The notes under the pieces were generated by a model. It ran no database searches and was not told where the DNA came from. It saw nothing but the letters and a program-made list of their open reading frames with translations. Positions 27,601 through 35,743 of a stretch of DNA of 39,179 bases are shown here, one piece after another. The stretch is from Nitrosomonadales bacterium (GTDB lineage: Bacteria; Pseudomonadota; Gammaproteobacteria; Burkholderiales; Gallionellaceae): contig JANXWX010000055.1 of the NCBI GenBank assembly GCA_025350915.1, positions 1 through 39,179 of the forward strand, given 5' to 3'. A program made the position numbers and the translations under genes. How positions within the stretch are numbered: the stretch's first letter is position 1; the number at the start of each line of letters is the position of its first letter.

Positions 27601-30192
27601 CCCGATCAGGATGACAGCAAATCACCAGATGCTGAAGCCTTTTCGTTCAATTTCGATGATATGGATTTTGCTGCCGAAACACCCAAAGTGGTGAAGGCGG
27701 CTGAGCCTGAAATTCAGTTTAATCTAAATGAATTTCAACCTGATTCAAGCCATCAGGAACAGGCACTGGATGAAGTGCGTGCGGGGGCAGGAACTAAACA
27801 ACCCATTGCCGAGGCATCCTCTTACATTCCCGAAATTGAATCGCTTGATGAAATCAACGCACAGTTAAAAGCCCAGCCTTCAGTGGCGCATGACGAAACT
27901 GTAACTGAAGATAGCCATGGAACTAAAAAAAGGGCGACCCAGGATGACCTGGACGAGCAGTTATTGCCGATATTTTTGGAAGAGGCAGACGAATTATATT
28001 CGCAATTAACAAGTGAATTAAACGAGTGGCGTAGCAATGTCAATGATGCCGGAGAAGGACTCAAAATTGCACGAAAGCTACAGCGCAGCCTGCATACCCT
28101 GAAAGGGAGTGCACGTATGGCTGGCGCAATGCGATTGGGAGAATTGACGCATCGGGTGGAAGATTGCCTGGATGCCACCGTAGCAGAAGGTAAACATGAT
28201 GCAGCATTGCTGGATGAGTTAGAAGGCTATTTTGACCGGATAGGTGGAGCGCTTGAAAAATTGCGCACAGGCGATACTTCAGCGGATGTTGTTGAACAGG
28301 TAGCCAAGGTTGTTGCGCCGAAAAAGAATGTGGTACAGCAACCGGTAGAGCAGCTAGTAGAAAATGTTGAAGAGAGCAAAGAAGCTGCGATATTACGCGT
28401 CAGATCAGATGTGGTTGATGATCTGGTCAACGAAGCGGGTGAAATAAGTGTCACGCGTTCACGTATGGAAGTTGAATTAAGTGCGTTCAAGGGCGGCCTG
28501 CACGACTTGACGAGTAGCGTACTCGGTATGCGAAAATTGGTGCGTGAAATTGAAATGCATGCCGAAGGACAAATGCAGGCGCGTTCTGCCGTGGCAGGAG
28601 ATAGTGCAGAGAAGTTTGATCCACTTGAGTTTGACCGTTTCACGCGTTTCCAGGAGTTGACACGTTTCATGAGCGAAAGCGTGCATGACGTCCACACGGT
28701 GCAACAGTCACTGCTCAAAAATCTGGATGAAACCAGTGCTGCCATGTCGGCACAGGCCAAGCTGAATAGTATCTTGCAGAAAAGCCTGATGTCGATACGC
28801 ATGCTGCCGTTTTCAAATATCAGCCAGCGTCTGTATCGCATTGTGCGTCAAACCGGAAAAGAGTTGGGCAAGAAAGCAAACCTGGAGTTATACGGTACCG
28901 AAATCGAGCTGGATCGCGGCGTGCTGGAAAAAATGACCGCACCGTTTGAACACTTGTTGCGTAACGCCATCGTGCATGGACTCGAAAGTCCCGAGCAACG
29001 CGAGTTAAAAGGCAAGCCGCCGATAGGTAACATCGCGCTGACCCTGCGTCAGGAAGGTAACGAAGTTGTATTTGAATTCAAGGACGATGGCGCCGGACTG
29101 AATACGGCCAAGATACGGCAAAAAGCCCTTGAGCAAGGCTTGATAAAATCGAATGAAGTCATCAGCGATGAAAAAGCCATGCTGTTGATATTTGAAACGG
29201 GTTTATCGACTGCAACAGAACTGACTGAAATTTCCGGACGCGGCGTCGGTATGGACGTTGTCCGCAGCGAAATTAAAGCACTGGGTGGACGTGTTGAAGT
29301 TTCATCAGAACCGGACAAGGGTGCAAATTTTACAATCTACCTGCCGTTAACCCTGGCGGTGATGAAGGCATTGATGGTGCGTGCCGGTAACGACATATAT
29401 GCAATTCCCTCGGTGATGGTGGAACAGGTGCAACAGATCAAGCCGGACGTTCTGGTAGAACTGTACCGCAGTGGATCAGTGTCCTGGCAGGACAAATCCT
29501 ACCCATTGTATTACCTGCCGCAATTGCTGGGTGACAAGGAGCGGGTGCCGGATAGCAAAGTTTATAACTCAATACTGCTCTTGCGTAGCGGTGATCAGCG
29601 TATCGCGCTCCATCTGGATGAGTTGATGGGAAACAAAGAGGTGGTCGTTAAAAACGTGGGCGTACAACTTGCCCGATTACCCGGTATTGCGGGTGCAACA
29701 GTGCAGGCCAACGGTAAAGTGGTGCTAATTCTGAATCCGGTTCCGCTGATACAAGAAACCAAAGAAGTGAAAAGGTTTGATACAACGATTATTCAGGAGC
29801 CATTACGGCGGACGCCAGTGGTCATGATCGTCGATGACTCGCTCACGGTCAGAAAAATTACAACCAGATTGTTGACCCGTGCCGGTTATGAAGTGGTTAC
29901 CGCAAAAGACGGCGTGGATGCACTTGAAAAACTGGTTGATATGACACCGGACATTATGCTGCTGGATGTCGAGATGCCGCGCATGGACGGTTTTGAGTTG
30001 ACCAAGCAATTGCGGCGCGACAGCAAGACCGTGGATCTGCCCATTATCATGATCACGTCACGTACAGCCGATAAACATAAAAACTATGCTTTCGAATTGG
30101 GCGTAAATGGCTATCTCGGCAAGCCCTATCAAGATGAAGAGCTATTGGAAAATATAGCTCAATACGCGCCACTGCTTGAGCCTGCATCGTAA
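24679..30192 (+). CDS. chpA: Chemosensory hybrid histidine kinase ChpA/PilL
   Basis: An 1837-residue CheA-type kinase that phosphorylates PilG and PilH. Order: a FimL-like N-terminal Hpt-related region (His52 in EELHRAVGVLQM); a long helical region to about 560; Hpt domains with His630 (FHTLKGSGRM), His781 (AHTLAGVNRS) and His1139 (LHTLKGSARM); an acidic low-complexity linker at about 840-1080. Next come the dimerisation/HATPase domain with N-box Asn1429, DDGAGL (1469-1474) and GRGVGMD (1520-1526), a CheW-like domain (about 1560-1690) and a receiver with Asp1763. P. aeruginosa ChpA is longer, with eight Hpt-like modules; only three clear TLKG-type histidines plus the N-terminal one are visible here. 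It follows pilJ after 18 bases. Confidence 0.95.
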   Translation: MVDTKQFNPLPLLSVKGGLDSSLAQISAELENYFNAGWSGNEHLKLAHEELHRAVGVLQMLSLEGLAVFSREFETVLQEMLMQQQAPTSLHRDTLRGALLALTQYLDSLADGASNTALRLFYSYQELHQLRGLETAFEVDLFFPEFGVELPAEVLDVPLVKSAAESVKKARAQYQRALLKWLRQDNPAQSLLSMRASVQTVMACAPQDQHRAFWWIATGLLDCLIHDGLPAELNANKLLARVDLQMKSMAEQKTRDTEYNTTCGMQYILARSHSVSETVDKIKQTYVLDSYLPEEQPLPYAEVVQVLEQMHSALTATQETHEQCIKGDAECSKRFIAQLEELHNLSERLDKDTLQFLCKQILNVASDTDDPDAMHRLKMEISMSLLLLGGGIDRYQHLDARFHEQERMLVQCLKSESSIDPADENSVMAEITALHCQMAEQEVLLPLATEMKGNLQQVELNLNVFFSDTSKRNELAPLRRLLTQVYGGLYMLSLDTAKQLIGPVVIAVDRYVAGATPSHTEMNAIASAVSALENYVHGVSQGLKPDETSLKEVLRLVLSDSHKADQQSVVQEASLPTGVSVREGGEDAELLEVFLEEAQEVLDTLHLHLGACQRNPHSREDLVTIRRGFHTLKGSGRMVGLTNLGEVAWSVEKALNKWLQDEKPTTLPVLELIGDAEVLFQHWVEKLRSGATALIDATDLVAAAQRVESGNFEETPSVAAKAEKEAELPDIVIGGVSLSPVLFNIATDEAASIIETLQRLVAELRKGGQSVIHYDFVRAAHTLAGVNRSTGFTDISDLAGALELWLQACLDTMAPPDILQLNLLEQTINALAEMVNTLRRKQEPKPRPDLITRLQIKKKQLNKAQEEEKQKDSSPQIESVQKVAEIAMPDLSAIEIQPLNDEDDLVAYVQRVAQEQANEPLQWQSPEEPANTETKKTTESSPEFEPVMPEIAPDNSLFSIDLNDLRITPGSQSKPDQDDSKSPDAEAFSFNFDDMDFAAETPKVVKAAEPEIQFNLNEFQPDSSHQEQALDEVRAGAGTKQPIAEASSYIPEIESLDEINAQLKAQPSVAHDETVTEDSHGTKKRATQDDLDEQLLPIFLEEADELYSQLTSELNEWRSNVNDAGEGLKIARKLQRSLHTLKGSARMAGAMRLGELTHRVEDCLDATVAEGKHDAALLDELEGYFDRIGGALEKLRTGDTSADVVEQVAKVVAPKKNVVQQPVEQLVENVEESKEAAILRVRSDVVDDLVNEAGEISVTRSRMEVELSAFKGGLHDLTSSVLGMRKLVREIEMHAEGQMQARSAVAGDSAEKFDPLEFDRFTRFQELTRFMSESVHDVHTVQQSLLKNLDETSAAMSAQAKLNSILQKSLMSIRMLPFSNISQRLYRIVRQTGKELGKKANLELYGTEIELDRGVLEKMTAPFEHLLRNAIVHGLESPEQRELKGKPPIGNIALTLRQEGNEVVFEFKDDGAGLNTAKIRQKALEQGLIKSNEVISDEKAMLLIFETGLSTATELTEISGRGVGMDVVRSEIKALGGRVEVSSEPDKGANFTIYLPLTLAVMKALMVRAGNDIYAIPSVMVEQVQQIKPDVLVELYRSGSVSWQDKSYPLYYLPQLLGDKERVPDSKVYNSILLLRSGDQRIALHLDELMGNKEVVVKNVGVQLARLPGIAGATVQANGKVVLILNPVPLIQETKEVKRFDTTIIQEPLRRTPVVMIVDDSLTVRKITTRLLTRAGYEVVTAKDGVDALEKLVDMTPDIMLLDVEMPRMDGFELTKQLRRDSKTVDLPIIMITSRTADKHKNYAFELGVNGYLGKPYQDEELLENIAQYAPLLEPAS

Positions 30193-30227
30193 CGGTAGCT
30201 TGCTGACAACCCCCTGTAATCTACCGT
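30192..30227 (+). other. Inverted repeat after chpA
   Basis: ACGGTAG (30192-30198) and CTACCGT (30221-30227) are perfect complements with a 22-base loop, starting in the chpA stop codon. No U-tract follows. It could be a 3' end stabilising structure or chance. Confidence 0.3.
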
Positions 30228-30287
30228 AAGAATGCAATCTACAAATTTACGGATGAAACATATGGGCTAGCAGGCTACAATAACGAC

Positions 30288-30848
30288 ATGTCACAGATTG
30301 ATCTTAGCCATCATTTCCTCATTGCCATGCCTGCCATGACAGACCCTATTTTTGCCAAGTCACTTACTTATGTGTGTGAACATAATGAGCAGGGTGCACT
30401 TGGAATTGTAGTAAACCGCCCTATCAGCTTAAACCTGGGCGAGTTATTCGCGCAAATTAAAATACCGTTACTCCCGACCGAGCTGGAAGAGTTACCCATA
30501 CATTTTGGCGGCCCGGTGCAGACAGATCGTGGTTTTGTTTTGCATGTTCCGGCTGGAGAATGGCAATCAACTCTGGTCGTAAAAGATCGGGTAGGCATGA
30601 CAACTTCCAAAGATATTCTCGAAGCGGTAGGGCAGGGAAAAGGTCCGCGCAATATACTCGTCACGCTTGGATACGCAGGTTGGTCTCAAGGCCAGCTTGA
30701 GCATGAGTTATCGCAAAATGCCTGGCTGAGTGTGCCGGCTACGGAAGAAATATTGTTTGATATGCCTGCAGAAGAGCGCCTGGCCGCTGCAATGGCCTTG
30801 CTCGGTGTGGACTATGCCTCGTTGTCTGCAGATTCCGGGCATGCATAA
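30288..30848 (+). CDS. algH: AlgH/YqgE family protein (UPF0301)
   Basis: A 186-residue YqgE/AlgH protein. The family start [19 protein letters not shown] and the block [11 protein letters not shown] are clear, as is [15 protein letters not shown]. The biochemical function is unsettled; AlgH was named from alginate regulation in Pseudomonas. Its place directly before ruvX and pyrB is a conserved arrangement across gamma- and betaproteobacteria. The C-terminus overlaps or abuts the ruvX start, depending on the start chosen for that gene. Confidence 0.93.
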
Positions 30849-30879
30849 CAGGCCAGTGGATGCATATTCAATAGCAGAA

Positions 30880-31338
30880 ATGAATTCAGCCATTAACGTG
30901 AAGGCGGTAACAGGAACACTGTTGGCATTTGATTTTGGTACCAAGCGAATCGGGATAGCGGTGGGTAACTCAATAGCTCACTCAACCCAACCGTTGATTA
31001 CTTTGCATGGTGAACAAAATGATCAGCGATTTTTGGCCATCGAAAAATTGATCACAGAGTGGCAACCCAGCGCACTCATCGTTGGCCTGCCAAGCAATGA
31101 TGATGGCACGCCGCACGAAATGACGCGCTTATGCCGGCGCTTTGCCAACCGCCTGAAGGGGCGTTTCAATTTGCCTGTAATCCTGGTAGATGAGCGTTAT
31201 ACTTCCGCCTCGGCAAGTACGCAACTGACTGAAATGGGCGTTCGCGGCATCAAGCAAAAAGTTATGATAGATCAAGTTGCCGCGCAACATATCTTACAAG
31301 CCTACTTTGACGAACCTACGATGGCGATTTTTGCATGA
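30880..31338 (+). CDS. ruvX: Putative pre-16S rRNA nuclease / Holliday junction resolvase RuvX (YqgF)
   Basis: A 152-residue RNase H-fold nuclease of the YqgF/RuvX family, implicated in pre-16S rRNA 5'-end processing. The catalytic Asp18 is in [16 protein letters not shown], and [11 protein letters not shown] is the second conserved block. I chose the ATG at 30880 for normal family length; an ATG at 30841 would add 13 residues and overlap the algH stop. Its TGA stop overlaps the pyrB ATG, so it is coupled to pyrB. Confidence 0.9.
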
Positions 31339-32288
31339 ATAATCCTCAACTGAATAAACACGGTGAATTGCAACATTTGCTCTCCACCGAAGGCCTGCCA
31401 TCGCGAATTTTGTATGACATTCTGGATCGTGCCTCAGCATTTGTTGATGAAGCCGGGCATGGAGAAATCAAGAAAGTACCCCTGCTTCATGGCAAGTCGA
31501 TATTCAATATATTTTTTGAAAACAGCACCCGCACCCGCACAACATTTGAAATAGCCGCCAAGCGCTTGTCAGCTGATGTGGTCAATCTGAATATAGGTTC
31601 ATCCTCGAGCAGCAAGGGCGAGACACTGCTGGATACAGTAGATAACCTGTGTGCCATGCATGCCGATATGTTTGTTGTACGCCATGCGCAAAGTGGCGCC
31701 GCGCATTTAATTGCAAAACATGTTGCTCCCGAAATTCATGTGATCAATGCCGGTGATGGACGTCACGCCCACCCGACACAGGCCCTGCTCGATATGTTCA
31801 CAATCAGGCACTATAAAAAAGAATTTCACAACCTGCGCGTGGCGATTGTTGGCGACATCATACATTCGCGTGTTGCACGCTCGCAGATTCATGCTTTGAC
31901 TACGCTGGGCGTACCCGAAGTGCGCGTGATTGCCCCCAAAACCTTGTTGCCCAGCCATGTTGAACAACTTGGCGTGCGCGTCTTCCACAATATGGAGGAG
32001 GGGTTGCGCGACGTTGATGTGGTGCTCATGCTCAGGCTGCAAAATGAACGCATGCAAGGCGCGGCGCTGCCATCGGCGCAGGAGTATTTTAAAAATTACG
32101 GATTGACGCAGGAAAAATTATCCCTGGCAAAAGAAGACGCCATCGTGATGCACCCCGGGCCGATGAACCGGGGTATTGAAATCGATTCCAGTGTTGCAGA
32201 TGGTGCACAGTCTGTCATCCTGCCACAGGTAACTTTTGGTATTGCGGTGCGTATGGCGGTGATGAGACTGCTGGCGGGCGATAAATAA
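31335..32288 (+). CDS. pyrB: Aspartate carbamoyltransferase catalytic subunit
   Basis: PyrB joins carbamoyl phosphate to aspartate in pyrimidine synthesis. The carbamoyl-phosphate loop STRTRT is at residues 64-69 and the SSSSSKGET loop follows near residue 97; [12 protein letters not shown] and MHPGPMNRG are further signatures. Length 317 is normal. It overlaps ruvX by four bases (ATGA). A dihydroorotase-like gene follows after 20 bases, and no pyrI regulatory subunit or pyrR is present. That arrangement matches the class A ATCase of pseudomonads, where the inactive PyrC' holds the complex together. Confidence 0.96.
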
Positions 32289-32308
32289 ATCAGATCAGGC
32301 ACACAGGT

Positions 32309-33586
32309 ATGAATATACAAATACAAAATGGACGATTGATTGATCCTAAAAATAAAATTGATGCCATACAGGATGTCTTTATCTCGGCAGGCAAAATCGT
32401 GGCGACGGGTATGGCACCTGCCGGATTTAAAGCAAATAAAATAATAGATGCCAAAGGGTTGATTGTGGCGCCGGGGTTAATAGACTTGGCAGCCAGACTA
32501 CGCGAGCCGGGTTATGAATACAGGGCAACGCTCGAGTCGGAAATGAATGCTGCGGTTGCTGGGGGTATAACGTCGTTAGCTTGCCCGCCAGATACCGATC
32601 CGGCACTTGATGAACCGGGTCTGGTCGAAATGCTTAAGCATCGCGCGCGCGCCTTGTGTCAGGCCAATGTATATCCCGTCGGCGCGCTGACTTATGGTTT
32701 GAAAGGGCAAGAATTAACCGAAATGGCCGAGCTGGTCGACGCAGGTTGTGTGGCATTTAGTCAGGCCGATGCACCATTAACCGATACAAGAGTTTTAATG
32801 CGCGCGATGCTATATGCCGCGACATTTAATTTTGGTGTCTGGTTACGCCCGCAAGACAGTTTTCTCGCCCGTGATGGTGTTGCCCATGATGGAGAAGTGG
32901 CAACACGGCTGGGGTTGCCGGCCATACCGGTCTGCGCAGAAACGATTGCGTTGTGTACCATGTTGCAATTGGCCAGAGAAACAGGAGTGCGCCTGCATAT
33001 ATGCAGGATCTCCAGTGCCGCTGGCGTTGCATTGCTCCGCGCTGCAAAAAAAGAAGGGCTTGTGGTTACTTGTGATGTATCGATGAACCACATTCACCTG
33101 TCCGAAATGGATATCGGCTATTTTGATTCAAATTGTCATTTGGTGCCCCCGCTACGCAATCAGCGTGACCGCGAGGCACTGCGAATCGGGTTGCAAGAAG
33201 GTGTGATCGATGCAATCTGCTCCAACCACTCTCCCGTGGATGACGATGCCAAGCAAATGCCATTTGCCGAAGCGGAAGCTGGCGCGACGGGTGTAGAGTT
33301 GCTCCTACCACTCGTGTTGAAGTGGGCCCAGGAAAGCAAACAAACGCTTATAGATGCCCTCGCAAAAGTAACATGCAATGCAGCGCATATACTTAAAATA
33401 GATGCTGGTCATTTAACTATTGGCGCTGCAGCGGATATATGTATTTTCGACCCGGCCTGTCACTGGAAGGTAGAGCCCCTCGCATTAAAGAGCCAGGGAA
33501 AAAATACGCCATTTTTGAATATGGAGCTACAGGGTAAAGTTCGCTATACACTGGTGAATGGCCAATTCGTTTATCAATCCGCGTAA
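32309..33586 (+). CDS. pyrX: Dihydroorotase-like protein lacking metal ligands (PyrC'/PyrX)
   Basis: A 425-residue amidohydrolase-fold protein immediately downstream of pyrB. The canonical metal motif D-x-H-x-H is altered: residues 59-68 read DLAARLREPG, with Ala61 and Arg63 where the two histidines should be. The later HxxHxS reads HICRIS (Arg233 instead of His), and the catalytic Asp of the DHAP motif is Asn306 in SNHSP. The protein is therefore very unlikely to be an active dihydroorotase. In Pseudomonas such a pyrC' product is a structural partner of PyrB. A true pyrC should exist elsewhere in this genome. The overall frame is intact, so it is not a decaying pseudogene. Confidence 0.9.
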   Translation: MNIQIQNGRLIDPKNKIDAIQDVFISAGKIVATGMAPAGFKANKIIDAKGLIVAPGLIDLAARLREPGYEYRATLESEMNAAVAGGITSLACPPDTDPALDEPGLVEMLKHRARALCQANVYPVGALTYGLKGQELTEMAELVDAGCVAFSQADAPLTDTRVLMRAMLYAATFNFGVWLRPQDSFLARDGVAHDGEVATRLGLPAIPVCAETIALCTMLQLARETGVRLHICRISSAAGVALLRAAKKEGLVVTCDVSMNHIHLSEMDIGYFDSNCHLVPPLRNQRDREALRIGLQEGVIDAICSNHSPVDDDAKQMPFAEAEAGATGVELLLPLVLKWAQESKQTLIDALAKVTCNAAHILKIDAGHLTIGAAADICIFDPACHWKVEPLALKSQGKNTPFLNMELQGKVRYTLVNGQFVYQSA

Positions 33587-33670
33587 AATAGACATCCTCC
33601 TTCTTTTATACCTATAAATTTCCGGCATAAAATTATTCTGCAGCATTTAAGTACCAGTCCCGAAAACATC

Positions 33671-35743
33671 ATGAATATTTCAAACACCACAAACAATCCT
33701 TTGCTCAACTTTACCGGCCTGCCGCGCTTTGCAGAAATTTTGCCAGCTCACGTGACGCCCGCAGTTGATAACTTACTGCAGCATAATCGTGACATCGTAT
33801 CAGCTTTGTTGAATGAGACTGCCGCGCCGATATGGGAAAATTTTGTTGATCGACTGGATGATGCAAACGAAATGATGGCACGCGCCTGGGGACAGATTAG
33901 TCATTTAAACGCGGTAATGAACAGTGCGGAATTGCGCGAAGTTTACAATGAAAACCTGCCAAAAATAACCCAATATTACGCCGAGCTGGGCCAAAATCTG
34001 AGCCTGTTCGCCAAATACAAGGCGTTGAAAAACAGCGCGGAATTTATCAAGTTAACGCAAGCCAGAAAAAAAATTATTGAAAATGCGTTGCGTGACTTTC
34101 GCCTCAGTGGTGCAGAATTGGCAGAGGACAAAAAAACGAGATTCCTTGAAATCCAGGACGAATTATCTGCACTTAGCTCGCGCTTCAGTGACAACCTGCT
34201 GGATGCGACAAATGAATTTTCCTTGCTGATTGATAATCGCGCTGAACTGGTGGGCATTCCGGCGGATGATCTGCAGGCCGCAAGAGATGCCGCACAGGCG
34301 AAGCAAAAAACAGGCTGGTTATTTACCTTAAAAGCACCCTCGTATATGCCGGTAATGCAGTATGCAGAGAATAGAGAGCTTCGAGAAAAGATGTACATCG
34401 CCTATAGTCAGCGCGCTAGTGAATTTGGCAAGGCAGACTGGGATAACACCCCGCTTATTACGCAAATTCTTAAGCTGCGGGAAGAAGAAGCAAAATTATT
34501 GGGTTACGCGAATTACGCCGAATTATCATTGGCTAGCAAAATGGCGAACACTCCGGAGCAGATACTTAAATTTCTAAGTGAGCTGGCACAACATGCACGA
34601 CCCCTGGCGGAAATGGATTTGTTGGAATTGCAAGATTTTGCAAAAAAGCAACTGGCAATGTCATCTTTACAGTCTTGGGATATTGGTTACGCCAGTGAGA
34701 AGTTAAGGCAACAACGTTACGCATTCTCAGACCAGGAAGTTAAACAGTACTTTCCCGAAGATGCCGTTGTTGCCGGAATGTTTAATGTGGTTCATAAAAT
34801 TTATGGCTTAAAATTACAGCCAGCACAGACGCAAGTGTGGCATGAAAGCGTTCGATTCTTTGATGTGTTTGACGCTGATGATAAACGTATAGGGCAGTTT
34901 TATATGGATCTGTATGCGCGTGACAGCAAGCGCGGAGGAGCATGGATGGATGATGCTATTACCCGTCGCAGAATAACGCCAGGCCTGCATACACCGGGCA
35001 TGATACAAACACCTGTCGCGTATTTGAATTGCAATTTTGCACCGCCAGTTGGCGGCAAACCCGCCTTGTTTACCCATGATGAAGTGTTGACTCTGTTTCA
35101 TGAATTTGGCCACGGCCTGCATCATCTGCTGACTGAAGTTGAAGAAATGGGCGTCTCCGGCATCAGCGGTGTAGAGTGGGACGCGGTTGAATTACCGAGC
35201 CAATTTATGGAAAATTTCTGCTGGGAATGGGATGTGCTGAGCAGTATGACCCGACACGTGGATACAGGGGCGAAAATGCCGCGCGCATTGTTTGATAAAA
35301 TGCTCGCGGCAAAAAATTTCCAGGTCGGTTTGCAAACATTGCGACAACTTGAGTTTTCAATTTTTGATATGCGTCTGCACAGTGATTTTGACGCGCAAGG
35401 AAAACAAAGTGTGCTTGATCTTCTGGCAGAGGTACGCAAGGAAGTTGCCGTGCTGATCCCACCGGCTTATAACCGCTTTGCCAACAGCTTTTCGCATATC
35501 TTTGCCGGTGGTTATGGCGCCGGCTATTACAGCTACAAATGGGCCGAAGTATTATCTGCCGACGCATACAGTATGTTTGAAGAACACGGCGTATTAAATG
35601 CCGAGATTGGTGCGCGCTTCCGCAAGGAAGTGCTCGCTGTCGGTGGTAGCCGCGACGCGATGGAGTCATTCATAGCCTTTCGCGGACGCGAACCGAGCAT
35701 CGATGCGCTGTTGCGGCACAATGGCTTGGTACAAACAAATTAA
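33671..35743 (+). CDS. prlC: Oligopeptidase A (M3 family metallopeptidase)
   Basis: A 690-residue cytoplasmic zinc peptidase that degrades short peptides, including cleaved signal peptides. The HExxH motif is HEFGH at residues 477-481, with the third ligand in EWDAVELPSQFMENFCWE. The long N-terminal helical part begins LLNFTGLPRFAEILPAHVTPAV, typical of PrlC. No signal peptide is present. Its neighbours are pyrX upstream (84-base gap) and a DUF4124-glutaredoxin gene downstream. Confidence 0.95.
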   Translation: MNISNTTNNPLLNFTGLPRFAEILPAHVTPAVDNLLQHNRDIVSALLNETAAPIWENFVDRLDDANEMMARAWGQISHLNAVMNSAELREVYNENLPKITQYYAELGQNLSLFAKYKALKNSAEFIKLTQARKKIIENALRDFRLSGAELAEDKKTRFLEIQDELSALSSRFSDNLLDATNEFSLLIDNRAELVGIPADDLQAARDAAQAKQKTGWLFTLKAPSYMPVMQYAENRELREKMYIAYSQRASEFGKADWDNTPLITQILKLREEEAKLLGYANYAELSLASKMANTPEQILKFLSELAQHARPLAEMDLLELQDFAKKQLAMSSLQSWDIGYASEKLRQQRYAFSDQEVKQYFPEDAVVAGMFNVVHKIYGLKLQPAQTQVWHESVRFFDVFDADDKRIGQFYMDLYARDSKRGGAWMDDAITRRRITPGLHTPGMIQTPVAYLNCNFAPPVGGKPALFTHDEVLTLFHEFGHGLHHLLTEVEEMGVSGISGVEWDAVELPSQFMENFCWEWDVLSSMTRHVDTGAKMPRALFDKMLAAKNFQVGLQTLRQLEFSIFDMRLHSDFDAQGKQSVLDLLAEVRKEVAVLIPPAYNRFANSFSHIFAGGYGAGYYSYKWAEVLSADAYSMFEEHGVLNAEIGARFRKEVLAVGGSRDAMESFIAFRGREPSIDALLRHNGLVQTN

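Follow-up and report, generated by a model that had tools for sequence, protein, structure and literature searches.

The open reading frame at positions 32309-33586 (+ strand) of the 39,179-nucleotide stretch of DNA analyzed here (the window) very probably encodes PyrC' (pDHO, alias PyrX), the chain without catalytic function in an aspartate transcarbamoylase (ATCase) of class A2; ATCase is the first enzyme in pyrimidine synthesis. The product, a dihydroorotase-like pseudoenzyme of 425 aa, matches the family model NF005791 with 743.7 bits (cut-off 442), and the frame is of full length with no interruption, as the initial annotation had stated when it proposed the PyrC' reading. That reading has been borne out and is supported, at the level of sequence comparison, by the family model, phylogeny, gene order and co-occurrence: the protein is a full-length class I dihydroorotase homologue that has lost its zinc site, its gene has pyrB as a neighbor, a separate dihydroorotase of the active type is encoded in the same genome, and the protein is placed within the PyrC' clade. 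Chance is ruled out by the score to a single family model together with purifying selection on the family orthologues. The nine closest named records, all metagenome assemblies, are 80-83% identical to the window protein (Proteobacteria bacterium, Nitrosomonadales bacterium, Gallionella sp. and Candidatus Ferrigenium) and those of Sideroxydans 75-77%. The window probably belongs to the Gallionellaceae, a family of iron oxidizers.

Loss of the metal site

In an alignment with the dihydroorotase of Aquifex (Aquifex DHO, 3d6n), to which the window protein is 34% identical, all six metal-site residues are replaced (H61A, H63R, D153A, H180R, H232R and D305N) and none of the six is kept. The HxH zinc pair His61/His63 is represented by codons 61-63 (Ala-Ala-Arg, positions 32489-32497), the zinc ligand Asp153 by codon 153 (Ala, 32765-32767), the beta-site residues His180 and His232 by codons 180 (Arg, 32846-32848) and 233 (Arg, 33005-33007), and Asp305 by codon 306 (Asn, 33224-33226), all on the + strand. 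Ala61, Arg63, Arg233 and Asn306, named by the initial annotation, are located as it placed them and correspond to Aquifex His61, His63, His232 and Asp305, but its list of lost residues was incomplete, as it omitted the changes of Asp153 to Ala and His180 to Arg. According to PMC3880350, the zinc ligands of Aquifex DHO are His61, His63 and Asp153, with Asp305 next closest and His180/His232 as the beta-site pair, and catalysis is unaffected by the removal of His180 and His232. Arg233 alone is therefore no sign of inactivity, and the argument for inactivity rests on the losses at 61, 63, 153 and 305. At these positions, where an active class I dihydroorotase has H61, H63, D153 and D305 (Aquifex numbering), the window protein has A, R, A and N, and we infer that it is without dihydroorotase activity. 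Despite these replacements, it scores 312 bits with TIGR00857 (pyrC_multi), above the cut-off of 279.05. Moreover, NF005791 and NF006838 both give the name "dihydroorotase" to dead proteins, and NF005791 also captures an intact enzyme (that of genome G180, described below). Such a name does not separate live from dead proteins. With a structural-only dihydroorotase as the rule in the family and the order, an automatic "dihydroorotase" annotation of these genes is misleading, and the enzyme proper is likely to be encoded by the class II gene at another locus.

The extent of the loss was surveyed in 154 rows, consisting of 36 from the family, 22 from the rest of the order and 96 from the rest of the class (9 below the NF005791 cut-off, and some partial). 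Within the family, none of the six residues is kept in 23 rows and Asp305 alone is kept in 13 (position 305: Asn 23/36, Asp 13/36), and in the rest of the order Asp305 is the sole residue kept in 22/22 rows. Among the rows from the rest of the class, none of the residues is kept in 3, one in 42, two in 38, three in 11, four in 1 and all six in 1. As Asp305 is retained in 112 of the 118 rows outside the family (22/22 from the order and 90/96 from the class), the Asn that has taken its place in some Gallionellaceae, among them the window, is a late step of decay, which is a modest addition to the known picture.

A second dihydroorotase in the genome

The genome of the window carries a class II PyrC at G000:C22:7447-8463 (TIGR00856, 472 bits), and a search of the whole genome with the Pfam amidohydrolase models gave two proteins only, PyrC' and this one. 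The stretches WHLHLRD, VKYYPAG, LVHGE, FEHITT and GTDSAPH can be read in its translation, and they correspond by eye to the six ligands that PMC2770081 gives for the E. coli enzyme. The initial annotation had called for a search for an active-type pyrC and would have given up the PyrC' reading for a genome with no other dihydroorotase; since this class II PyrC exists, with its motifs intact, that situation does not apply.

A class II PyrC over the cut-off was found in 57 of the 60 genomes of the order, and in 55 of the 57 in which PyrC' was over its own cut-off. The two remaining genomes are G014, which gave no match in an assembly of 370 contigs, and G039, in which the gene is split over two frames. 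In the latter, a single-contig genome, the split class II pyrC (L108:1855-2891, G039:C1) is found beside a dead PyrC', and a sequencing error is the likelier cause. For the class, 30 genomes for the class II PyrC survey and 16 for a comparison of intact and dead sites were picked by hand and not at random. Class II PyrC was over the cut-off in 22 of the 30; among the other 8, which include G180, G072 has a match below the cut-off, and a further class I match is present in G085, G105 (there below the cut-off), G106 and G169. In the comparison, class II PyrC was over the cut-off in 1 of 8 intact-site genomes (G209) versus 6 of 8 pseudoenzyme genomes, the latter including G178 and G063 because none had been found there before. 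These two genomes, which complete the 8 of the first set, encode a PyrC' with a lost site, and neither a class II PyrC nor a second class I dihydroorotase over the cut-off was found in them.

It is highly improbable that the window protein is an active dihydroorotase that uses another metal or none, in the manner of the Zur-regulated third PyrC paralogue of pseudomonads. A PyrC paralogue without the conserved zinc residues is indeed cited as active in PMC2770081, and NCBIfam names the NF005791 family "dihydroorotase". However, the same source keeps the active paralogue apart from PyrC', the window protein has neither the alpha-site ligands nor Asp305, the residues at the old ligand positions vary across the clade, and the genome has the class II PyrC with intact motifs.

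Neighboring genes and absence of pyrR

The gene order in the window is yqgE, ruvX, pyrB, pyrC' and a 690-aa ORF encoding a putative oligopeptidase. The conserved upstream neighbor yqgE/algH (30288-30848; family-model match and synteny) is followed by ruvX (yqgF; 30880-31338; TIGR00250, 120.4 bits), the start codon of which was chosen inside the ORF 30730-31338, and by pyrB (31335-32288), which encodes the aspartate carbamoyltransferase catalytic chain of 317 aa (NF002032, 408.8 bits, cut-off 263), the presumed partner of PyrC'; all three are on the + strand. pyrB ends 20 bp ahead of the pyrC' start codon, in agreement with the positional coupling that had been noted from the sequence. Motif residues amounting to 13 letters, together with HPGP, can be read in the PyrB translation; typical ATCase motifs are FxExSTR and RxQxER (PMC4581275). 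The PyrB alignments begin inside the chain, with an offset of 17 residues against B. subtilis and 19 against Aquifex, which suggests an N-terminal extension. A PyrB match was located in the same stretch as PyrC' in 93 of the 95 class-sample stretches, and also in L169 and L175, which were listed singly.

The pseudomonad arrangement, with pyrR directly before pyrB, is not found in the window, where ruvX overlaps pyrB by 4 bp. No PyrR over the cut-off was found in the genome (best match 53.6 bits versus 140, on another contig), and the missing pyrR of the initial annotation is thereby confirmed both locally and genome-wide. In the family, PyrR (NF003545) was over the cut-off in 0 of 36 genomes (G000-G035), whereas 14 of the 24 remaining genomes of the order had it. 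The distance from ruvX to pyrB was measured in the window and in 19 family relatives (G001-G020 less G003, which is broken by a contig end), whereas 15 further family stretches contributed PyrC' and PyrB only; in 19/19 family stretches measured it is at most 176 bp, leaving no room for pyrR. In other families of the order, ORFs mostly of 165-216 aa are located between ruvX and pyrB, and the five that were scanned are PyrR. Across the class, 83 of 95 stretches showed a PyrR match together with PyrB, and PyrR precedes pyrB in 6 of 7 stretches with an intact-site dihydroorotase from outside the class, the seventh (L247) showing neither gene; in the G180 stretch PyrB is present and PyrR was not seen. 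As PyrR is found alongside PyrB in most of the class stretches and in the intact-site outgroup stretches, the order pyrR-pyrB-pyrC looks ancestral, with pyrR lost in Gallionellaceae, and the family-wide lack of pyrR is a modest addition to what is known. A riboswitch or PyrR-binding RNA was sought by an Rfam search of positions 30000-34000 to an E value of 1, and the sole match, snoU54, which fell short of its gathering score (21.5 versus 35 bits), was taken as chance.

Selection, conservation and predicted fold

The dN/dS of pyrC' was 0.026-0.096 in 9 of 11 family pairs and that of pyrB 0.019-0.067 in 11 family pairs, the PyrC' value being the higher one in 8 of the 9 pairs computable for both. 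Synonymous sites are saturated in the two pyrC' comparisons that involve the window (pS 0.773 and 0.843, pN 0.093 and 0.111), so that the estimate of selection comes from the other members of the family; among these relatives, PyrC' is under strong purifying selection. In the combined family and order rows, 100 of the 425 columns are identical in at least 57 of 58. Arg63 is present in 58/58, a uniformity for which plain decay does not account; in this order, the old ligand positions are more than noise.

Arg63, Arg180 and Arg233 occur together in 35 of the 36 family rows and in 18 of the 22 rows from the rest of the order, and this arginine triple may be a packing feature or an anion site. In this order, the dead site could have been rebuilt and not merely lost, the near-fixed arginines forming an anion pocket through which the pseudoenzyme senses an ATCase substrate or an effector that carries a phosphate, and so controls how stable the dodecamer is. 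We regard this as unlikely; if true, such sensing could matter more where PyrR has been lost, as in Gallionellaceae. There is still less reason to believe that PyrC' serves chiefly in regulation, with the dead pocket binding an anionic effector and tuning the ATCase while assembly is secondary. The ATCase of P. aeruginosa is inhibited by nucleotides, and the inhibition survives deletion of the N-terminal extension (PMC7053772), which is in line with the proposal; however, the labeling cited there assigns the ATP site to the catalytic chain, and allostery is argued against (PMC7053772). In addition, the triple is rare in the rest of the class (2 of 96 rows) and absent from four rows of the NF006838 type (SAGTQH/SAGHQH), and position 180 is conserved to no more than a roughly average degree for the alignment; because position-wise conservation is not exceptional for all three arginines, the probability given to an effector-binding role is low. 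That PyrC' is a decaying relic, retained only through its proximity to pyrB, is scarcely credible, for although all six metal-site positions are lost and its dN/dS exceeds that of PyrB in the eight pairs mentioned, this explanation was rejected on the dN/dS of the nine family pairs, the pairs of the window itself being saturated, and it is further opposed by the lack of internal stops in the over-cut-off matches of 57 genomes, by the conserved gene order and by the 100 near-invariant columns.

The AlphaFold2 model of PyrC' has a mean pLDDT of 76.1 and a pTM of 0.82, with low confidence in many loops. Its best structural matches are to Aquifex DHO, the first being 4bjh_A (Z 42.6, rmsd 2.6, 391 residues), and the structures of Aquifex DHO alone or with its ATCase partner (ATC) are tied within 1 Z unit. 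Among PDB sequences, no PyrC' was recognizable among the 60 of 61 matches listed, and the nearest is again Aquifex DHO. The stretches with pLDDT below 50 (residues 66-71, 95-99, 129-134, 183-193, 195-197, 265-282 and 308-326) partly come after the former ligand-bearing strands in the sequence. Isolated Aquifex DHO is described as having disordered loops that become ordered upon ATC binding (PMC3880350), and the resemblance of the low-confidence loops of the model to these is suggestive only.

Origin of the pseudoenzyme

The only one of the 154 rows with all six ligands is the gene of G180 (L175:2088-3374, G180:C7), a genome placed in the same class by the genome label of the sample. Like the window gene, it follows yqgE and pyrB, and its product is above the same NF005791 cut-off (485.2 bits versus 442); unlike the window protein, its six ligands are intact, and no second dihydroorotase was found in its genome with TIGR00856 or TIGR00857. 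In a 152-row FastTree phylogeny with Aquifex as the sole root, G180 is sister to all other rows (support 98). In a 61-row IQ-TREE phylogeny, for which the outgroup was limited to seven intact class I enzymes from outside the class and the bootstrap was not settled (0.985), G180 and 49 pseudoenzymes form a clade (98/95) in which G180 is again the sister, and the pseudoenzymes alone, the window among them, form another (100/100). The pseudoenzyme clade also includes the NF006838 type, found in the order pyrR-pyrB-pyrC'. From these trees PyrC' looks to be of single origin, with G180 as a candidate living relative of the state that preceded the pseudoenzyme; a single origin with a living intact sister is a modest addition. 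In the simplest history, the site would have been lost once, when a different dihydroorotase had already taken over, and G178 and G063, with a dead PyrC' and no other dihydroorotase found, do not fit a takeover by the class II enzyme. The survey provides a history that can be tested, namely one origin of the pseudoenzyme and a surviving relative with an intact site in whose genome no second dihydroorotase was found.

Distribution of PyrC' and genomes without it

The initial annotation had presented the window gene as extending a structural-only paralogue to this lineage, a claim of novelty that proved overstated. NF005791 was over the cut-off in 57 of the 60 genomes of the order, that of the window included, and a class-wide sample of 143 genomes gave 89 with such a match. 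Furthermore, PyrC' without zinc residues has already been described, with Burkholderia among the genomes of the alignments (PMC2770081). A structural-only dihydroorotase is the normal state in Gallionellaceae and across the order, and the window protein was confirmed as an ordinary example from a lineage in which PyrC' is the rule. In the openly licensed literature, searched mostly at the level of abstracts, no paper on PyrC' in Gallionella or on an intact PyrC' sister was recognized, which is weak evidence.

Two genomes of the order can be considered natural experiments in the disappearance of PyrC', one with the ATCase swapped (G048) and one with the ATCase kept (G053). In G048, the place of the ruvX-linked pyrB is taken by a different ATCase with an HPLP motif (L106:3943-4956, G048:C4), which is over the cut-off of TIGR00670 (316 bits) and has NF006046 as its best model (481 bits, below the cut-off of 512), and PyrC' is absent; our interpretation is that the ATCase was swapped and the scaffold was lost with it. 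In G053 (L107:3774-5373, G053:C7), a full-length PyrB of the PyrC'-associated type is present (NF002032, 385 bits), PyrC' is gone and the upstream pyrR is degenerate. Only 246 bp separate this PyrB from the next gene, and one frame of the gap resembles, by eye, the C-terminal tail of PyrC', possibly as a remnant of a deletion. PyrI (TIGR00240) was found in none of the six genomes queried, among them that of the window, G048, G053 and G054, and a class B ATCase was rejected on this basis. The retention of PyrB in G053 with neither PyrC' nor PyrI speaks against a strict requirement for PyrC'; some PyrB chains may do without it, or the PyrB of G053 may be failing. In G054, neither PyrC', PyrB nor class II PyrC was over the cut-off.

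Several other records were noted. G028 has two PyrC' matches over the cut-off, on G028:C15 and G028:C50 (735.8 and 729.5 bits), from either duplication or contamination. The metagenome contigs L325 (titled Chitinophaga pinensis), L332, L336 and L339 (Bordetella parapertussis) encode PyrC' proteins 68-69% identical to that of the window; the title of L325 looks wrong for its content, and those of the other three are doubtful. Carriage of PyrC' by viruses was not confirmed in a pattern scan of close relatives only. Plasmid records with PyrC' numbered 35, all below 60% identity, and the 15 listed have 37.6-40.1%; the records listed are of 1.6-4.6 Mb and are thus chromids or chromosomes. An insertion mutant of P. 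aeruginosa PA0401 ("Noncatalytic dihydroorotase-like protein") appears in a membrane-vesicle screen (PMC10722149), so disruption of this gene is possible under the conditions of that screen.

Proposed role and comparison with known systems

The PyrB of P. aeruginosa is monomeric and inactive by itself, pDHO is a dimer, and a 1:1 mix of the two yields an active complex of 457 kDa (PMC7053772). By analogy with this Pseudomonas biochemistry, the window PyrC' would have a role in ATCase assembly and the window PyrB would depend on it: PyrC' dimers would most likely bind PyrB and join two PyrB trimers into a dodecamer (6+6), and the resulting ATCase could not form, or would not stay stable, from PyrB by itself. 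Dihydroorotase activity would be supplied by the separate class II PyrC. The decay of the site probably followed the takeover of the chemistry by the class II enzyme, and the assembly role would have kept PyrC' under selection. In the literature searched, no biochemistry of the window protein or of its family was found.

The closest known counterpart is the PyrC'/pDHO (PyrX) of the class A2 ATCase of Pseudomonas putida and P. aeruginosa. This too is a dihydroorotase homologue lacking the zinc site; its gene is a neighbor of pyrB, and a dihydroorotase of the active type is encoded at another locus. The window PyrC' is in one clade with the NF006838 type, which we take to be the pseudomonad type; unlike the pseudomonads, the window has no pyrR in the cluster or in the genome, and its dead site reads ARARRN versus SAGTQH/SAGHQH there. 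The DHO of Aquifex aeolicus, from the class A1 DHO-ATC reactor (3d6n, 4bjh), shares the fold and the ATCase partner at 34% identity, but it is zinc-bound and active in the complex (PMC3880350), whereas the window PyrC' retains none of the site residues. Finally, the inactive DHO domain of fungal Ura2/CAD (5nnl, "Inactive dihydroorotase-like domain") is also a dead dihydroorotase kept beside an ATCase (PMC7053772); in contrast to PyrC', it is a fused domain on a distant branch, with only 28.1 bits to the window protein, and we read the two losses as independent.
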